Assembly (NCBI RefSeq): GCF_004363315.1
Contig: NZ_SNYL01000004.1
Coordinates: forward strand, 1-64,000
Direction of reading: 5' to 3'
Origin: Tepidicella xavieri
GTDB lineage: Bacteria; Pseudomonadota; Gammaproteobacteria; Burkholderiales; Burkholderiaceae_C
DNA length: 64,000 nucleotides
The position numbers were made by a program, and so were the translations under genes. Below the pieces are notes generated by a model. The model did no database searches, was not told where the DNA came from, and saw nothing but the letters and a program-made list of their open reading frames with translations. Of this stretch, positions 9,935-33,786 are shown one piece after another; positions within the stretch are counted from its first letter, which is position 1; each line of letters opens with the position of its first letter.

Positions 9935-11524
9935 ATGACTTCGCACAGCAGCCCCGAAGCCGCCGCGGCACAGGTGGCGGCCGGTGATGGCGGACTGCGG
10001 TTGCGCCGCGTCGCCATTGACACCTACCGCGAAAACGTGGCCTATCTGCACCGCGATTGCGCCATCTACCGCGCGGCCGGGTTTCAGGCCCTGTCCAAGG
10101 TCGAGGTGCGTGCCAACGGCCGGCGCATCCTGGCCACGCTCAACGTCACCTCCGACCCGCGCATCGTGCAGTGCCACGAGCTGGGCCTGTCCGAAGACGC
10201 TTTTGCCCAGATGGGCGTCGAGCCGGGGCACCCGGCCTTCGTCGCGCAGGCCGAGCCGCCGGCGTCGATCGCTGCGCTGCACCGCAAGATCCACGGCGAG
10301 CGCCTGAGCCGGGAGGACTTTCACGCCATCGTGCGCGACATCGCCGAGCACCGCTACTCCAAGATCGAGTTGTCGGCTTTCGTGGTGGCCACCCATCGGG
10401 GCGAGTTGGACCGTGAGGAGGTCTTTTTCCTCACGGAAGCGATGATTGCCAGTGGCCGGCGGGTGGATTGGCGCGAGCGACTGGTGGTGGACAAGCATTG
10501 CATCGGCGGCATACCGGGCAACCGCACGTCGATGCTGGTGGTGCCGATCGTGGCGGCGCACGGACTGGTGTGTCCCAAGACGTCCTCGCGCGCCATCACC
10601 TCGCCGGCGGGCACGGCCGACACCATGGAGGTGCTGGCGCAGGTCGAACTGCCATTCGATCGGCTGGGCGAGATCGTGCGCGAGCATCGGGCTTGCCTTG
10701 CCTGGGGAGGCACGGCCGATCTGTCGCCCGCCGACGATGTGCTGATTTCGGTCGAACGCCCGCTGTCGCTCGATTCGCCCGGGCAGATGGTTGCCTCGAT
10801 CCTCAGCAAAAAGGTCGCGGCCGGCTCCAACCATCTGGTGCTCGACATTCCGATCGGCCCCACGGCCAAGGTGCGCTCCATGCCCGATGCGCAGCGGCTG
10901 CGTCGCTTGTTTGAATACGTGGCCCACCGCCTGGGCCTGTCGCTGGACGTGGTCATCACCGATGGCCGGCAACCCATCGGCCATGGCGTGGGGCCCATGC
11001 TGGAGGCGCGCGACGTGATGCGCGTGCTGCAAAACCATCCGCTGGCGCCCCAGGATCTACGCCAGAAATCGCTGCGCCTGGCGGGCCGCCTGCTGGAGTG
11101 CGATCCCGATATCCGTGGCGGTGACGGCTACGCGATCGCCCGCGACATCCTCGATTCCGGGCGGGCGCTGGAGAAGATGCTCGCCATCATCGCGGCGCAG
11201 GGCGCGCACCCATTCGATCCCGAGCATCCCGCGCTGGGCGCGCTCACCTTCGAGGTGCAGGCCGAGCGCGACGGCGTCGTCACCGGCATCGACAATCTGC
11301 AAATCGCCCGCATCGCCCAACTGGCCGGTGCCCCGAAGGTGCAAGGCGCCGGGGTGGACCTGATGCGCAAGCTGGGCGACCCGGTCAAAGCCGGTGACGT
11401 GCTGTACCGGGTTCATGCCGCCTATCCCTCCGACCTGGCCTTTGCCCGCCAGGCCAGCCAGCGCGATGCGGCTTACCGCATCGGCACGCCGGCCGAGGTC
11501 CCTCGTGTGTTCGTGGAATTCTGA
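9935..11524 (+). CDS. Thymidine-phosphorylase family protein of the archaeal AMP-phosphorylase type
   Basis: A 529-residue phosphorylase, clearly longer than the roughly 440-residue thymidine phosphorylase. It has an extra N-terminal domain of about 100 residues and the phosphate/ribose site [14 protein letters not shown] (186-199) followed by [16 protein letters not shown] (215-230). These match archaeal AMP phosphorylases, which split nucleoside 5'-monophosphates to base plus ribose 1,5-bisphosphate, rather than bacterial DeoA. The gene ends 2 bp before a PRPP-synthetase homologue, so the two very probably act together in nucleotide salvage. Substrate assignment is inference from motifs. 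Confidence 0.75.
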
Positions 11525-11526
11525 AC

Positions 11527-12447
11527 GTGTCTGCGCCTGCCTTGCTGCTTGGTTTCGATGACGAATCGGCCCCCGTCACCCGGCTGGCCGAAGCCGGAGG
11601 CTGGCCGGTGGCGACCGTGCAACGGCACCGCTTCCCCGATGGGGAGTTGCGCCTGCGTCTGCCCGAGCCATTGCCCCCGCGTGTGGTGGTGTACCGCAGC
11701 CTGCATCGGCCCAACGAGAAGCTGGTGGAACTGCTGCTGGTGGCCCGCCACGCCCGTCAGGCCGGGGTGGGGCATCTCACGCTGGTGGCCCCCTACCTGG
11801 GCTACATGCGGCAGGATATGGCGTTTCAGCCCGGCGAGGTGGTCAGCCAACGCATCGTCGGCGCCTGGCTGGCAGACCTGTTCGATGCCGTGATCACGGT
11901 CGATCCGCACCTGCACCGGGTCGCCACCCTGGCTGAAGCCGTGCCGGTGGCCCAGCCGGTGGTGCTCAGCGGCGCCCCGGCGCTGGCCGACTGGATTGCC
12001 CGACAGCGCCCAGGGGCGCTGCTGCTGGGGCCAGACGAGGAATCGGCGCAATGGGTGGCCCAGGCCGCCCGGCGGCACGGCAACGACAGCGCGGTCTGCC
12101 GCAAGGTACGGCACGGGGACCGTTCGGTGCGCATCGAGTTGCCCGACAGGGCCTGGGCCGGGCGGCAGGTGGTGATCCTCGACGACGTGGCCAGCACCGG
12201 GCACACTGTGGCGCAAGCCGCGCGCCTGTTGCGCGAAGCCGGCGCCGTTTCGGTGGACGTGGCCGTCACGCACGCGCTGTTCGCAGGCGATGCCCTGGAC
12301 GTGCTGCATGCCGCTGGTGTCGGCGCGGTCTGGAGCACCGACTGCATCACGCACCCTTCCAACGTGGTGTTCATGGCCGCTGCGTTGGCCGCCGCCCTGC
12401 AAGGCGTGCTGGACGCCCCGGCGCTGCCCATGATGCCGCCGGCCTGA
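11527..12447 (+). CDS. Ribose-phosphate pyrophosphokinase homologue (second, archaeal-like copy)
   Basis: A 306-residue PRPP-synthetase family protein. It keeps FPDGE (36-40), the Y-M-R-Q-D motif (93-97), the VDPHLH metal site (125-130), a lysine at 193 in the flexible loop region, and a PRPP loop DDVASTGHT (219-227). The loop and the PYLGYMRQDMAFQPGE stretch resemble archaeal PRPP synthases more than the standard bacterial Prs encoded at 32777-33760, which has DDMIDTAGT. It begins with GTG at 11527, 2 bp after the phosphorylase. It may make PRPP for, or from, products of its partner; a regulatory role is also possible. Confidence 0.75.
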   Translation: MSAPALLLGFDDESAPVTRLAEAGGWPVATVQRHRFPDGELRLRLPEPLPPRVVVYRSLHRPNEKLVELLLVARHARQAGVGHLTLVAPYLGYMRQDMAFQPGEVVSQRIVGAWLADLFDAVITVDPHLHRVATLAEAVPVAQPVVLSGAPALADWIARQRPGALLLGPDEESAQWVAQAARRHGNDSAVCRKVRHGDRSVRIELPDRAWAGRQVVILDDVASTGHTVAQAARLLREAGAVSVDVAVTHALFAGDALDVLHAAGVGAVWSTDCITHPSNVVFMAAALAAALQGVLDAPALPMMPPA

Positions 12448-12461
12448 GCCGCTGGCCGGCG

Positions 12462-13352
12462 TCAGAGGTCGGTGCGCAGTTTCCAGATTTCGGGGAACAG
12501 CACCACGTCCAACATCTTGCGCAGATAGGCGGTGCCACTGGTGCCGCCCGTGCCGCGCTTGAGGCCGATCACCCGCTCCACCGTCGTCAGGTGCCGGAAG
12601 CGCCAGAGACGAAATGCGTCTTCCAGGTCGGTGAGTTCTTCGCCGAGTTGGTACAGGTCCCAGTGCTGCTCGGGCTGGCGGTACACCTGCAGCCAGGCTT
12701 GCTCCACCGCTTCGCTTTCCACGTAGGGCTGGCGCCAGTCGCGCTCGGCGTGCGTAGCCGGGATCGCCAGGCCCCGCCGCGCCAACAGGCGCAACGCCTC
12801 GTCATAGAGGGAGGGAGCCTCGTAGGCCGCCTGTACCTGGGCCAGCAGGTCGCTGCGGTGGGCGTGGGGCTTGAGCATGGCGGCGTTCTTGTTGCCCAGC
12901 GCGAATTCGATGCAGCGGTATTGGTAGCTCTGAAAGCCGCTGGATTGCGCCAGATAGGGCCGGATCGCGCTGTACTCCGGGGGCGTCATGGTGGCCAGCA
13001 CGTCCCAGGCGTGCACCAACTGCTCCATGATGCGGCTGACCCGGGCCAGCATCTTGAACGCGGCCGGCAGCTGGTCCCGCGCCACGCAGGCCACGGCGGC
13101 GCGCAACTCGTGCAACATCAGCTTCATCCACAACTCGCTGGTCTGATGCTGGATGATGAACAGCATCTCGTTGTGGTCTGGCGACAGGGGCTTCTGGGCG
13201 TTGAGGATGGCATCGAGCTGCAGATAGTCACCGTAGCTCATGGCGCGGCTGAAATCGAGCTGGGCCTTTTCCTCGTGGACGATGGCCTCTGCCGTGCCGG
13301 GGGCATGGAAGGGACAGGCGTGCGTTTCGGGAGGCGATGGTTGAGGGCTCAT
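12462..13352 (-). CDS. kynA: Tryptophan 2,3-dioxygenase
   Basis: A 296-residue haem enzyme that opens the indole ring of L-tryptophan to N-formylkynurenine. Family marks are [10 protein letters not shown], then [18 protein letters not shown] with the conserved active-site His, and the C-terminal [11 protein letters not shown] substrate loop. It is the last gene of a kynB-kynU-kynA unit on the minus strand, 27 bp after kynU, although it catalyses the first step. It is convergent with the PRPP-synthetase homologue. Confidence 0.95.
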
Positions 13353-13379
13353 GAGGGGCTTTCGCGTGGCGGGACGGTG

Positions 13380-14663
13380 TCAGGTCACGGCGTGCTGGCG
13401 GTGGAATTCGGGGCGTTGCCACTCGCCGCTGTCCAGCACCTGCCGCAAGTGCTCCACGGCGTGCCAGACGTCGGCATGGCTGAGGTACAGCGGCGTGAAG
13501 CCAAAGCGCAGGATGTCGGGCTGCTGATCGTCGCCCGCGCGAAAATCGCCGATCACGCCGCGCGCGATCAAGGCCTGCACGATGGCATAAGCCCCCGTCT
13601 GCCGGCTCAGGCACACTTGCGAGCCGCGCTGGGCGTGGCTACGCGGCGTGACCAGTTCCAGACCGTGGCCGGCGCAACGCTCTTCCACCAGGTCGATGAA
13701 CAGGTCGGTCAGCGCGAGGGATTTGGCGCGCAGCGCGGCCATGCCGCCCAACGGTTCGGCAGCGAGCACGGTGTCCACGCCGCATTCGAGCGCCGCCAGG
13801 CTGATGATGGGCTGCGTGCCGCACAAGAACCGACCGATGCCGGGGGCCGGCTGGTAGTTGGGCGTGAAAGCAAACGGGGCGGCGTGGCCCCACCAGCCAG
13901 CCAAGGGCTGCCACAGGTCGGGGCCGAGCGCGGCCGCATGGCGGGGATGCAGCCAGGCAAAGGCCGGAGCGCCTGGGCCGCCGTTGAGGTATTTGTAGCC
14001 GCAGCCCACGGCGAAATCGGCATTCGCGCCGTTGAGGTCCACCGGCACGGCCCCGGCGCTGTGGGCCAGGTCCCACACGGTCAGGGCCCCAGCGGCGTGC
14101 GCGGCGGCGGTGATGCCCGCCATGTCGTGCATGGCGCCGGTGCGGTAGTTCACGTGGGTGAGCATGAGCACGCCGGTGTTGCCGCCCAGGCAGCCGGGCA
14201 GTTCGGCCGCATCGATGAGTCGCAGCGTCCAGCCGTGCTGACGGCACAGCGCTTCGGCGATGTACAGGTCGGTGGGGAAGTTGCTGCGCTCGCTGACGAT
14301 GGTGCGGCGCTCGGGTGCCCGGCGCTGCTGCAAGGCCATGGCCAGGCTCAGCACCTTGAACAGGTTGACCGAGGTGCTGTCGGTGGCCACGGTTTGCCCC
14401 GGGCCGGCACCGATGAGGCGGCCGATCTTGTCGCCGATGCGCTGCGGCCATTCGAACCATCCGGCGGTGTTCCAACTGCGGATCAGCCCCACCCCCCATT
14501 CCTCTTGCACCACGGCCTGCACGCGTGCGGCGGTGGCGCGAGGCATCACCCCGAGCGAGTTGCCGTCGAGGTAAATCACTCCCTCGGGGATGTGGAACAG
14601 CGCCCGCAGGGGCGACAGGGGGTCACGGGCGTCGAGCGCCTGGCAGTCTGGCAAAGTGGTCAT
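13380..14663 (-). CDS. kynU: Kynureninase
   Basis: A 427-residue PLP enzyme hydrolysing kynurenine to anthranilate and alanine. K224 in [11 protein letters not shown] is the Schiff-base lysine; [14 protein letters not shown] just before it holds the PLP-binding Asp, and YLDGNSLG near residue 31 is the N-terminal signature. It lies 4 bp after kynB, so the genes are cotranscribed. Its product anthranilate feeds tryptophan synthesis, quinolone synthesis or catabolism; no anthranilate dioxygenase is seen in this window. Confidence 0.95.
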
Positions 14664-14667
14664 GGGT

Positions 14668-15306
14668 TCAGTCCAGGGTGCGCAGCACCGCCCGCACAGG
14701 GCTGGCGTCTGCGGTCATGAGTTTGAGGGGCAGGGCGATGAGTTCGTAGTCACCTTCGGGCACGGCGTCCAGGCACAGGTTTTCCAGCACCCGCATGTCG
14801 CGCCGGCGGATGACTTGGTGGCTGTCCAGCGTCTTGCTGTCGGCCGGGTCGATGCTGGCGGTGTCGATGCCGACGAGCTTCACGCCCCGGTCGGCCAGCC
14901 GTTCCAGCAATTCGGGGTCGAAGGCGGTCAATGCCGGGTCCCAGCGGTCGGCGGGCATGTGCGCATAGGTGCGGACGAGCACCCGCGCCGGCAGGGTGGC
15001 CTCATCGGGCAGGGCATGGCAGACATGGTGCCATTGCACCAAAGGCCGCACGCCAATCGCATGCACCACCCGGCACAGGCCCAGATACGGTTCCAGCGCC
15101 ACCGCGCCAATCGAGGCGCCTTGCGGGTCGTAGTGCAGCGGGGCGTCTGCGTGCGCGCCCGCGTGCGGCGTGGTGGTGATGGCGCTGACGTTGACCGGGC
15201 AGCCAGGGCCGATTCGGGCCACCCACGTCTGGGCGTAGGCGGTGTCGCCCGGAAAGACCGGCGTGCCCGGACCGACAGGCGGCGAAATGTCGATCACGGT
15301 AGGCAT
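14668..15306 (-). CDS. kynB: Kynurenine formamidase (arylformamidase)
   Basis: A 212-residue cyclase-family metal enzyme that removes formate from N-formylkynurenine. The metal-binding motif is visible as H48-A-G-A-H52-A-D54-A-P-x-H58. It is the first gene of the kynB-kynU-kynA operon. An Lrp-type activator (KynR) often accompanies such operons in other bacteria but is not seen here. The 78 bp between its start and the upstream antiporter stop must hold any promoter. Confidence 0.94.
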
Positions 15307-32776: not shown

Positions 32777-33760
32777 TCAAGCGTGCTCGGCTTCTGCGAA
32801 CAAACTCATCACCGATTCGCCGCTGGCGATGCGCGCGATGGTCTCGGCCATCAGCGGCGCCACGGAAAGCTGGCGAATCTTCGAGCAGGCCTGAGCGGCC
32901 TGACTCAGCGGAATGGTGTTGGTCACGACCACCTCATCGAGCGCTTCGCCTTTGGCGATGCGGTCGATGGCAGGGCCGGAGAAAATCGGGTGGGTGCAGT
33001 AGGCGTACACCTTGCGCGCGCCACGCTCCTTGAGCACTTCGGCCGCTTTCACGAGCGTGCCGGCGGTGTCGATCATGTCGTCCATGATGACGCAGTTGCG
33101 GCCTTCGATGTCGCCGATCACGTGCATGACTTCGGAGACGTTGGGCTTGGGGCGGCGCTTGTCGATGATGGCCATGTCGCAGTTGAGCTGCTTGGCCAGT
33201 GCGCGGGCGCGCACCACGCCCCCCACGTCGGGCGAGACGACCAGCAAATCCGGATAGTTCTTGGCCCGCAAATCACCGAGCAGCACCGGCGAGGCGTAGA
33301 TGTTGTCGACGGGGATGTCGAAAAAGCCTTGGATCTGGTCGGCATGCAGGTCCATGGTGAGGACGCGGTTGACGCCGACGACTTGCAGCATGTTGGCCAC
33401 CACCTTGGCCGAGATGGGCACGCGGCTCGAACGCGGGCGGCGGTCTTGGCGGGCGTAGCCGAAATACGGAATGACAGCCGAGACGCTGACGGCCGAGGCG
33501 CGCTTGAGCGCATCCACCATGATGACGAGTTCCATGAGGTTCTCGTTGGTGGGAGCGCAAGTGGACTGCACCACGAACACGTGGCGGGCCCGCACGTTTT
33601 GCGTGATCTCGACCGAAACCTCGCCATCAGAAAAGCGGCCCACATTGGCCGCTCCGAGCTTGGTTCCGAGATGTTGGGCGATTTCTGCCGCCAGTACCGG
33701 GTTGGCATTACCGGTGAACAGCATGAAATCCGGCGTTTGCACTGGCGAGGATGTTTGCAT
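32777..33760 (-). CDS. prs: Ribose-phosphate pyrophosphokinase (main PRPP synthetase)
   Basis: A 327-residue bacterial class I PRPP synthetase. It has [19 protein letters not shown], the metal site [12 protein letters not shown], the catalytic DKRRPKPN flexible loop and the PRPP loop [13 protein letters not shown] made here feeds purine, pyrimidine, NAD, His and Trp synthesis. It lies 27 bp after tRNA-Gln. Compare the diverged second homologue at 11.5 kb. Confidence 0.97.
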
Positions 33761-33786
33761 GGAAAACCCGGCGCAGGTAAGAAATT

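Follow-up and report, generated by a model that had tools for sequence, protein, structure and literature searches.

Two adjacent genes on the + strand of Tepidicella xavieri contig NZ_SNYL01000004.1, the first 64,000 nucleotides of which form the window analysed here, encode a phosphorylase (positions 9935–11524, ATG start, 529 aa) and a protein of the phosphoribosyl pyrophosphate (PRPP) synthetase fold, hereafter the partner (11527–12447, GTG start, 306 aa). We conclude firmly that the two genes form a widespread module, paired specifically with each other, and that the phosphorylase is an enzyme of the nucleoside monophosphate (NMP) phosphorylase type. As to what the module does, our preferred reading, held tentatively and at slightly less than an even chance, is a two-step pathway through a shared ribose 1,5-bisphosphate (R15P). 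The phosphorylase would convert NMP and inorganic phosphate to free base and R15P, as its family, its residues and the fusions described below suggest, and the partner would then convert R15P and ATP to PRPP, which is the job of PhnN in the fused version; this second step is the weakest of the scheme. The NMPs would be supplied by RNA turnover, in many relatives through a beta-CASP ribonuclease encoded alongside, and the outcome would be PRPP made from old RNA, bypassing ribose 5-phosphate (R5P). That R15P is the metabolite common to both enzymes we consider quite likely. All of these functional readings rest on sequence comparison and gene context, in the window and in other genomes.

The two proteins of the pair

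The phosphorylase, annotated in other genomes as a 'thymidine phosphorylase family protein', matches the Pfam families Glycos_trans_3N, Glycos_transf_3 and PYNP_C. It scores 704.7 bits against NF003338 (cut-off 434) and 615.5 bits against TIGR02645 (cut-off 434.6), and the latter match spans positions 1–491 of the 493 in the model, which covers the N-terminal part and bears out the extra N-terminal domain proposed in an initial annotation of the window. The same annotation had described the two open reading frames (ORFs) as lying 2 bp apart and had quoted two motifs; the phosphorylase stop and the partner's GTG are indeed separated by 2 bp, and both motifs are present. The model for thymidine phosphorylase (DeoA), TIGR02643, gives 159.4 bits against a cut-off of 570.7, the pyrimidine nucleoside phosphorylase model is far below its cut-off, and the archaeal AMP phosphorylase equivalog TIGR03327 gives 505.6 bits, below its cut-off of 535. 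The closest solved chain is 4ga5 (E 3.3e-106), an AMP phosphorylase from T. kodakarensis. This enzyme (TK0352, PDB 4ga4–4ga6), which splits AMP, CMP and UMP to yield R15P (PMC9700705), has the same architecture with an N-terminal domain and is 44.5% identical to the window's protein over 440 residues.

In a maximum-likelihood tree (quick search, 53 rows, one fused row long-branched), the phosphorylase is placed in a clade of bacterial proteins that adjoins the archaeal AMP phosphorylases, with DeoA distant, and both splits are starred at 100. The archaeal-type phosphorylase of the initial annotation therefore stands as to its kind, while its placement does not, as the protein falls in a broad bacterial sister clade and not among the archaeal enzymes. 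Sixteen positions, defined from the alignment itself and not from a published list, are occupied as in all three archaeal enzymes and in none of six DeoA-like ones, among them S218, T222, S223, W257, G259, P306, K312 and P354; they are also found in the PhnN fusions, and K312 is a candidate holder of the 5′-phosphate. With DeoA and pyrimidine nucleoside phosphorylase the protein shares its fold, as judged by sequence, and many positions (e.g. K187, S217, T227, S288 and K292, whose roles are here presumed), but it is separated from DeoA by a deep split in the tree and is only 25.8% identical to the E. coli enzyme. A thymidine phosphorylase is ruled out by scores, residues and tree, and the protein is of the AMP/NMP-phosphorylase kind.

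The partner scores 379.7 bits (cut-off 322) against the subfamily NF005537/PRK07199, 'ribose-phosphate diphosphokinase', and also matches the general subfamily model TIGR01251, with the ordinary Prs equivalog models far under their cut-offs. Among solved chains it is closest to 1u9y from M. jannaschii (E 3.5e-35), and in a quick-search tree of 44 rows its family forms one clade of its own (starred 99). Neither protein of the pair falls within ordinary bacterial DeoA or Prs.

The catalytic and substrate residues of PRPP synthetases are present in the partner (F36, D38, E40, R95, Q96, D97, H128, K193, R195, D219, D220 and T227). Residues were counted over 157 distinct sequences of its family and compared with nine reference enzymes, six housekeeping or bacterial (E. 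coli included) and three archaeal. R95, Q96, D97, H128, K193, R195, D219, D220 and T227 are kept in all 157, and F36, D38 and E40 in 153–154 (three rows are gapped and one has Tyr at position 36). Equally invariant are H130 and R131, shortly after the catalytic H128, the flexible-loop residue D198, which also occurs in one archaeal enzyme, and E172 in the pyrophosphate loop, a position held by Gly in all nine references; the Gly-containing form of this loop (SPDxGG, or PDxG in archaea) is absent from the partner (the loop names are in part ones we presume). The position after RQD, which in the E. coli enzyme is the active-site R99 (PMC6332680), carries a Lys or Arg in just 31 of the 157 sequences. 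The class I allosteric residues of the E. coli enzyme (R49, S81, Q136, D144, S308 and F313; PMC6332680) are not kept, the aligned residues being L49, G80, A133, V145, A299 and P304 in an alignment that is loose at the C-terminus.

Set beside class I Prs and the archaeal class III enzymes, the partner has the fold, the catalytic residues and an archaeal-like flag loop (F100, G103), but it differs in its separate clade, in E172 and H130–R131, and in the loss of the class I allosteric residues. The archaeal loops of the initial annotation accordingly come down to the flag loop, as the pyrophosphate loop resembles neither the three archaeal nor the six bacterial references, and its archaeal-like PRPP synthetase needs correcting, as the partner forms a clade of its own with an invariant change in that loop. 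The partner is probably a live enzyme, with an adenine nucleotide and a 5-phosphoribosyl compound as substrates, and is different where the transferred phosphates sit; given its own clade and the invariant pyrophosphate-loop change, it may not run the ordinary reaction at all.

Pairing of the genes and fusions to PhnN

In a draw of 398 Pseudomonadota genomes, containing 48 phosphorylase genes, both genes are found in 40 genomes, the phosphorylase alone in five, the partner alone in one and neither in 352. The partner is therefore present in 40 of 45 phosphorylase genomes and the phosphorylase in 40 of 41 partner genomes (Fisher p 3e-48, uncorrected for relatedness), a pairing far beyond chance. 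NF005537 proteins were divided from housekeeping Prs by score, the values being 322.8 bits or more, then 299.6 and 261.9 (a partial copy), then 167.6 bits, and the 299.6-bit protein was counted as a partner. The partner lies directly downstream of 39 of the 48 phosphorylase genes; a gap of a few kb separates them in G552 and, for one of two copies, in G415, and G563 has a second phosphorylase without a partner.

Conservation of the pair in relatives, which the initial annotation had raised, is borne out at closer range. Within the family of the window, 38 of 120 genomes have the phosphorylase, and the partner is present in 30 of the 31 loci examined (window counted in) out of 42 places found; in L260 it is spread over two ORFs. 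Among 274 genomes of the class, 59 have a TIGR02645 match above cut-off, and 28 of the 30 loci examined from this set have the partner in their short flanks. When the best 80 of at least 585 relatives in named genomes are taken together with the window, the partner stands beside the phosphorylase on the same strand in 81 of 81 loci, all near kin and thus non-independent.

NF005537 is absent from five of the phosphorylase genomes, G509, G515, G567, G641 and G651. In four of them a domain of PhnN (the PRPP-forming ribose 1,5-bisphosphokinase, TIGR02322) is fused in front of the phosphorylase, with scores of 181.4 (G651), 164.2 (G567), 185.7 (G641) and 168.6 bits (G509) against a cut-off of 156, and a PhnN search over the same genomes recovers the four fusions again. 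The phosphorylase of G515 ends early and runs into unrelated sequence; this truncated gene adjoins a full-length beta-CASP ORF on the opposite strand (L205:6098–7969). The same PhnN–phosphorylase fusion is encoded on a plasmid of Pacificitalea manganoxidans by CBW24_RS15780, annotated as phnN. The Walker A motif GPSGxGKD is intact in all five fusions. Their phosphorylases form one clade (starred 100) that groups with the clade of the window (starred 96) inside the bacterial family (starred 100), from which PhnN seems to be a replacement for the partner, and a swap from the NF005537 protein to PhnN seems the simplest history of the fusions. The fold of PhnN, of the guanylate kinase family, is unrelated to that of the partner, although the same step is proposed for both. 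As E. coli PhnN converts R15P to PRPP (PMC9700705), its standing in for the partner points to R15P as the product of the phosphorylase and to the partner as a consumer of R15P.

A nadC homologue lies directly upstream of the fusion in all five fusion loci (L182, L183, L184, L185 and L231:4492–7458; in Pacificitalea a TAXI-TRAP transporter also precedes the fusion). No nadC was found in the remaining 181 of the 186 phosphorylase-bearing loci scanned; of the 186, many are the same gene twice and 110 are of at least 10 kb. NadC uses PRPP, and the nadC-linked fusion may serve to supply PRPP specifically to a pyridine-nucleotide reaction.

Ribonuclease neighbours, and low-oxygen regulation in B. 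diazoefficiens

A gene of the metallo-beta-lactamase (MBL)/beta-CASP type with an RMMBL domain is found at most 3 kb from 20 of the 48 phosphorylase genes in the 398 genomes, up- or downstream and in 19 cases on the same strand, and HxHxDH and other beta-CASP motifs are conserved in 14 linked copies. We rely on this adjacency and not on the co-occurrence of the two genes across genomes (Fisher p ~2e-15 to 2e-17), which is biased, as the profile came from the 14 linked loci. Among bacterial plasmid records, 11 of 12 have the beta-CASP gene beside the phosphorylase (in L236 only as a partial, unannotated ORF, and in L241 on the opposite strand), and there is none in two archaeal records. An apparent beta-CASP–phosphorylase fusion in L208 (G065) was not counted, an undetermined base falling exactly at the join. 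This neighbourhood suggests that the NMPs for the pair come from RNA; for the genome of the window the link is by gene presence alone, its one beta-CASP gene (G000:C2:118356–119708, 628.3 bits) being unlinked to the pair. That gene starts 22 nt past the stop of dnaJ in a dnaK–dnaJ–beta-CASP row (L219:5153–9717, in G000:C2), the names dnaK and dnaJ being our own reading of the protein starts.

Plasmids of Alphaproteobacteria, Bacteroidota, Chlamydiota and Legionella (L232, L233, L234, L235, L236 and L244) carry the ribonuclease, phosphorylase and PRPP-synthetase homologue in a row, with a partial ribonuclease in L236, which suggests that the row has been spread by plasmids. Genes for a copper ATPase and for DUF302 or DUF2933 proteins accompany the row on several of these plasmids, and 15 of the 186 loci scanned, six of them plasmid records, have a copper-ATPase-like gene close by. 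On a Niveispirillum plasmid (L240:6010–12515) the phosphorylase, a beta-CASP gene and a DEAD/DEAH helicase follow one another, and the annotation shows no PRPP-synthetase homologue beside them.

The bll3117-bll3116-bll3115 operon of B. diazoefficiens likewise combines the phosphorylase, a PRPP-synthetase homologue and an MBL gene. All three genes are increased in microoxia as transcript and as protein (log2 protein change of 2.1, 4.4 and 2.9; PMC6515984). The operon is a FixK2-box unit that is decreased in a fixK2 mutant (bll3117 by 6.6-fold and bll3115 by 30.6-fold), as is the phosphoketolase–acetate kinase operon of the same organism (PMC9104804). In the parts consulted, both papers tabulate these genes without a proposed pathway (PMC6515984; PMC9104804). 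The window differs from this operon in having neither an adjacent MBL gene nor a clear FixK2/FNR box, the best match being 7 of 10 letters. Boxes of at least 9 of 10 letters occur upstream of 4/79 close loci and 3/58 phylum loci, compared with ~1% in controls, and of 0/14 plasmid loci; with at least 8 of 10 letters, the counts are 14/79 and 17/58, compared with 12 and 14% in controls. This is only a weak excess over the loci, and low-oxygen control is not claimed for the window.

Proposed product of the partner and competing readings

The genome of the window, listed as 100% complete, has no match to the R15P isomerase (IF-2B family, PF01008) or to the RuBisCO large subunit (PF00016), which rejects for this genome the archaeal pentose bisphosphate route through ribulose 1,5-bisphosphate (RuBP); the initial annotation had proposed a search for both enzymes. 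It has no PhnN above cut-off, the single match (59.6 against 156 bits) being probably guanylate kinase (we read the gene upstream of it as yicC), and no phosphoketolase match. PRPP is favoured as the product of the partner because PhnN stands in for it elsewhere and because the genome is without the other R15P consumers searched for. That the pair links nucleotide breakdown to PRPP rather than to RuBP, as first suggested, is the best reading, and it is strengthened by the PhnN fusions and the beta-CASP neighbour, which go beyond the initial annotation.

A number of points weigh against this pathway. No activity is reported for the bacterial phosphorylase family in the literature consulted. The canonical catalytic residues kept by the partner also fit the ordinary PRPP-synthetase reaction, and making PRPP from R15P requires gamma-phosphoryl transfer, whereas the chemistry of the fold is diphosphoryl transfer. 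The PhnN fusions come from a small, specialised lineage in which nadC is always present, and the ordinary partner need not share their product. Some phosphorylases have neither partner nor PhnN in the DNA examined (L173/L186, L206, L207, L240 and L259), and one genome of the 398, G642, has the partner without the phosphorylase. The beta-CASP gene is unlinked to the pair in the genome of the window and in 28 of the 48 cases, and a catabolic role is suggested instead by the phosphoketolase-family and acetate kinase genes found near some relatives.

These phosphoketolase-family genes are part of the cluster or adjoin it in Legionella fallonii, Criblamydia sequanensis, Agrobacterium, G552, G415, G007 and G340. 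The Agrobacterium, G552 and G415 forms are divergent and far under the NCBIfam cut-offs, that of G007 is divergent and that of G340 is partial. They amount to 8 of 243 phosphorylase-bearing loci (many short or duplicate), two being the same gene. The acetate kinase match is strong in Criblamydia and weaker in L175, L176 and L180. The divergent protein beside the partner (L175:8302–10680, L176:10845–13241, L237:2224–4593 and L128:3–1505) has ~790–800 aa in its three complete copies, and in Agrobacterium is annotated as xylulose 5-phosphate 3-epimerase.

Such neighbours would suit a partner that is a phosphotransferase (R15P + AMP → R5P + ADP), giving RNA-fed substrate-level phosphorylation with R5P passing to phosphoketolase in some relatives, which we regard as unlikely. 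The reaction is the natural chemistry of the fold, namely the reverse PRPP-synthetase reaction (PRPP + AMP → R5P + ATP) minus one phosphate, and it would agree with the invariant E172 where the transferred phosphates should sit, with the frequent loss of the basic residue after RQD, and with the status of the B. diazoefficiens operon and the phosphoketolase–acetate kinase operon as FixK2-box units (PMC9104804). The PhnN swap, however, points to PRPP, phosphoketolase is a rare neighbour, and it has no match in the genome of the window. The sum of NMP phosphorolysis and transfer from R15P to AMP is moreover uphill by ~20 kJ/mol under standard conditions and would need strong pulling. The fuller version, in which this new activity of the PRPP-synthetase fold joins the beta-CASP enzyme and the phosphorylase in a low-oxygen fermentation of RNA, recovering phosphate bonds before phosphoketolase, is marginally less likely again.

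On a par with the phosphotransferase in its low probability is a partner that is simply an extra PRPP synthetase (R5P + ATP → PRPP + AMP), the phosphorylase removing or recycling AMP and R15P being a side product or used elsewhere. The checked catalytic residues and the NCBI subfamily name, ribose-phosphate diphosphokinase, are those of such an enzyme, but the PhnN stand-in fusions and the invariant loop changes are then left unexplained, and R15P has no known sink in the genome. An ordinary prs is also already present, at 32.8 kb as initially annotated: the genome has two PF13793 matches, and the one outside the pair is this gene, canonical in sequence, on the − strand at ~32777–33763 (start chosen within the ORF). 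The pair might also run towards synthesis, the partner making R15P and the phosphorylase adding a free base for cheap base salvage, in keeping with phosphorolysis equilibria, which usually favour synthesis; the PhnN fusions and beta-CASP neighbours indicate breakdown, however, and we think this very improbable.

If real, the pathway would give R15P an active place in metabolism, linking RNA breakdown to PRPP (or energy) in about one-tenth of the Pseudomonadota genomes sampled (45/398), including rhizobia in low oxygen. It would also account for hundreds of genes, with at least 585 relatives found, that now go under the names 'thymidine phosphorylase' and 'ribose-phosphate diphosphokinase'. NCBIfam already has models for the two protein families, naming one of them 'thymidine phosphorylase', and for the families of the pair the two labels are probably misleading. 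The open-access literature searched yielded no description of the pair as a pathway or of the PhnN fusion, and no paper on PhnN together with thymidine phosphorylase or on the pair with a metallo-beta-lactamase, though earlier discussion elsewhere is possible.

Among other neighbours in the window, a TctC-family periplasmic receptor gene (PF03401; 8923–9924, + strand, start approximate) ends 10 nt before the phosphorylase and may be on the same transcript as the pair; it is not a conserved neighbour, occurring in 6 of the 81 close loci, window included. No conserved third gene is found in at least 10 of these 81 loci, a comparison in which the window's copy was offset by one base; the remaining gene clusters that reach this number overlap the two genes and are apparently shadow ORFs. 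In G642 the lone partner (L181:7775–8716) has as its neighbour a gene for an M24-family (DddP-like) protein, and a permease of a branched-chain-type ABC transporter is encoded nearby. Downstream of the pair in the window, the genes at 12462–15306 on the − strand are oriented towards it, and we take them to encode tryptophan 2,3-dioxygenase, kynureninase and kynurenine formamidase.

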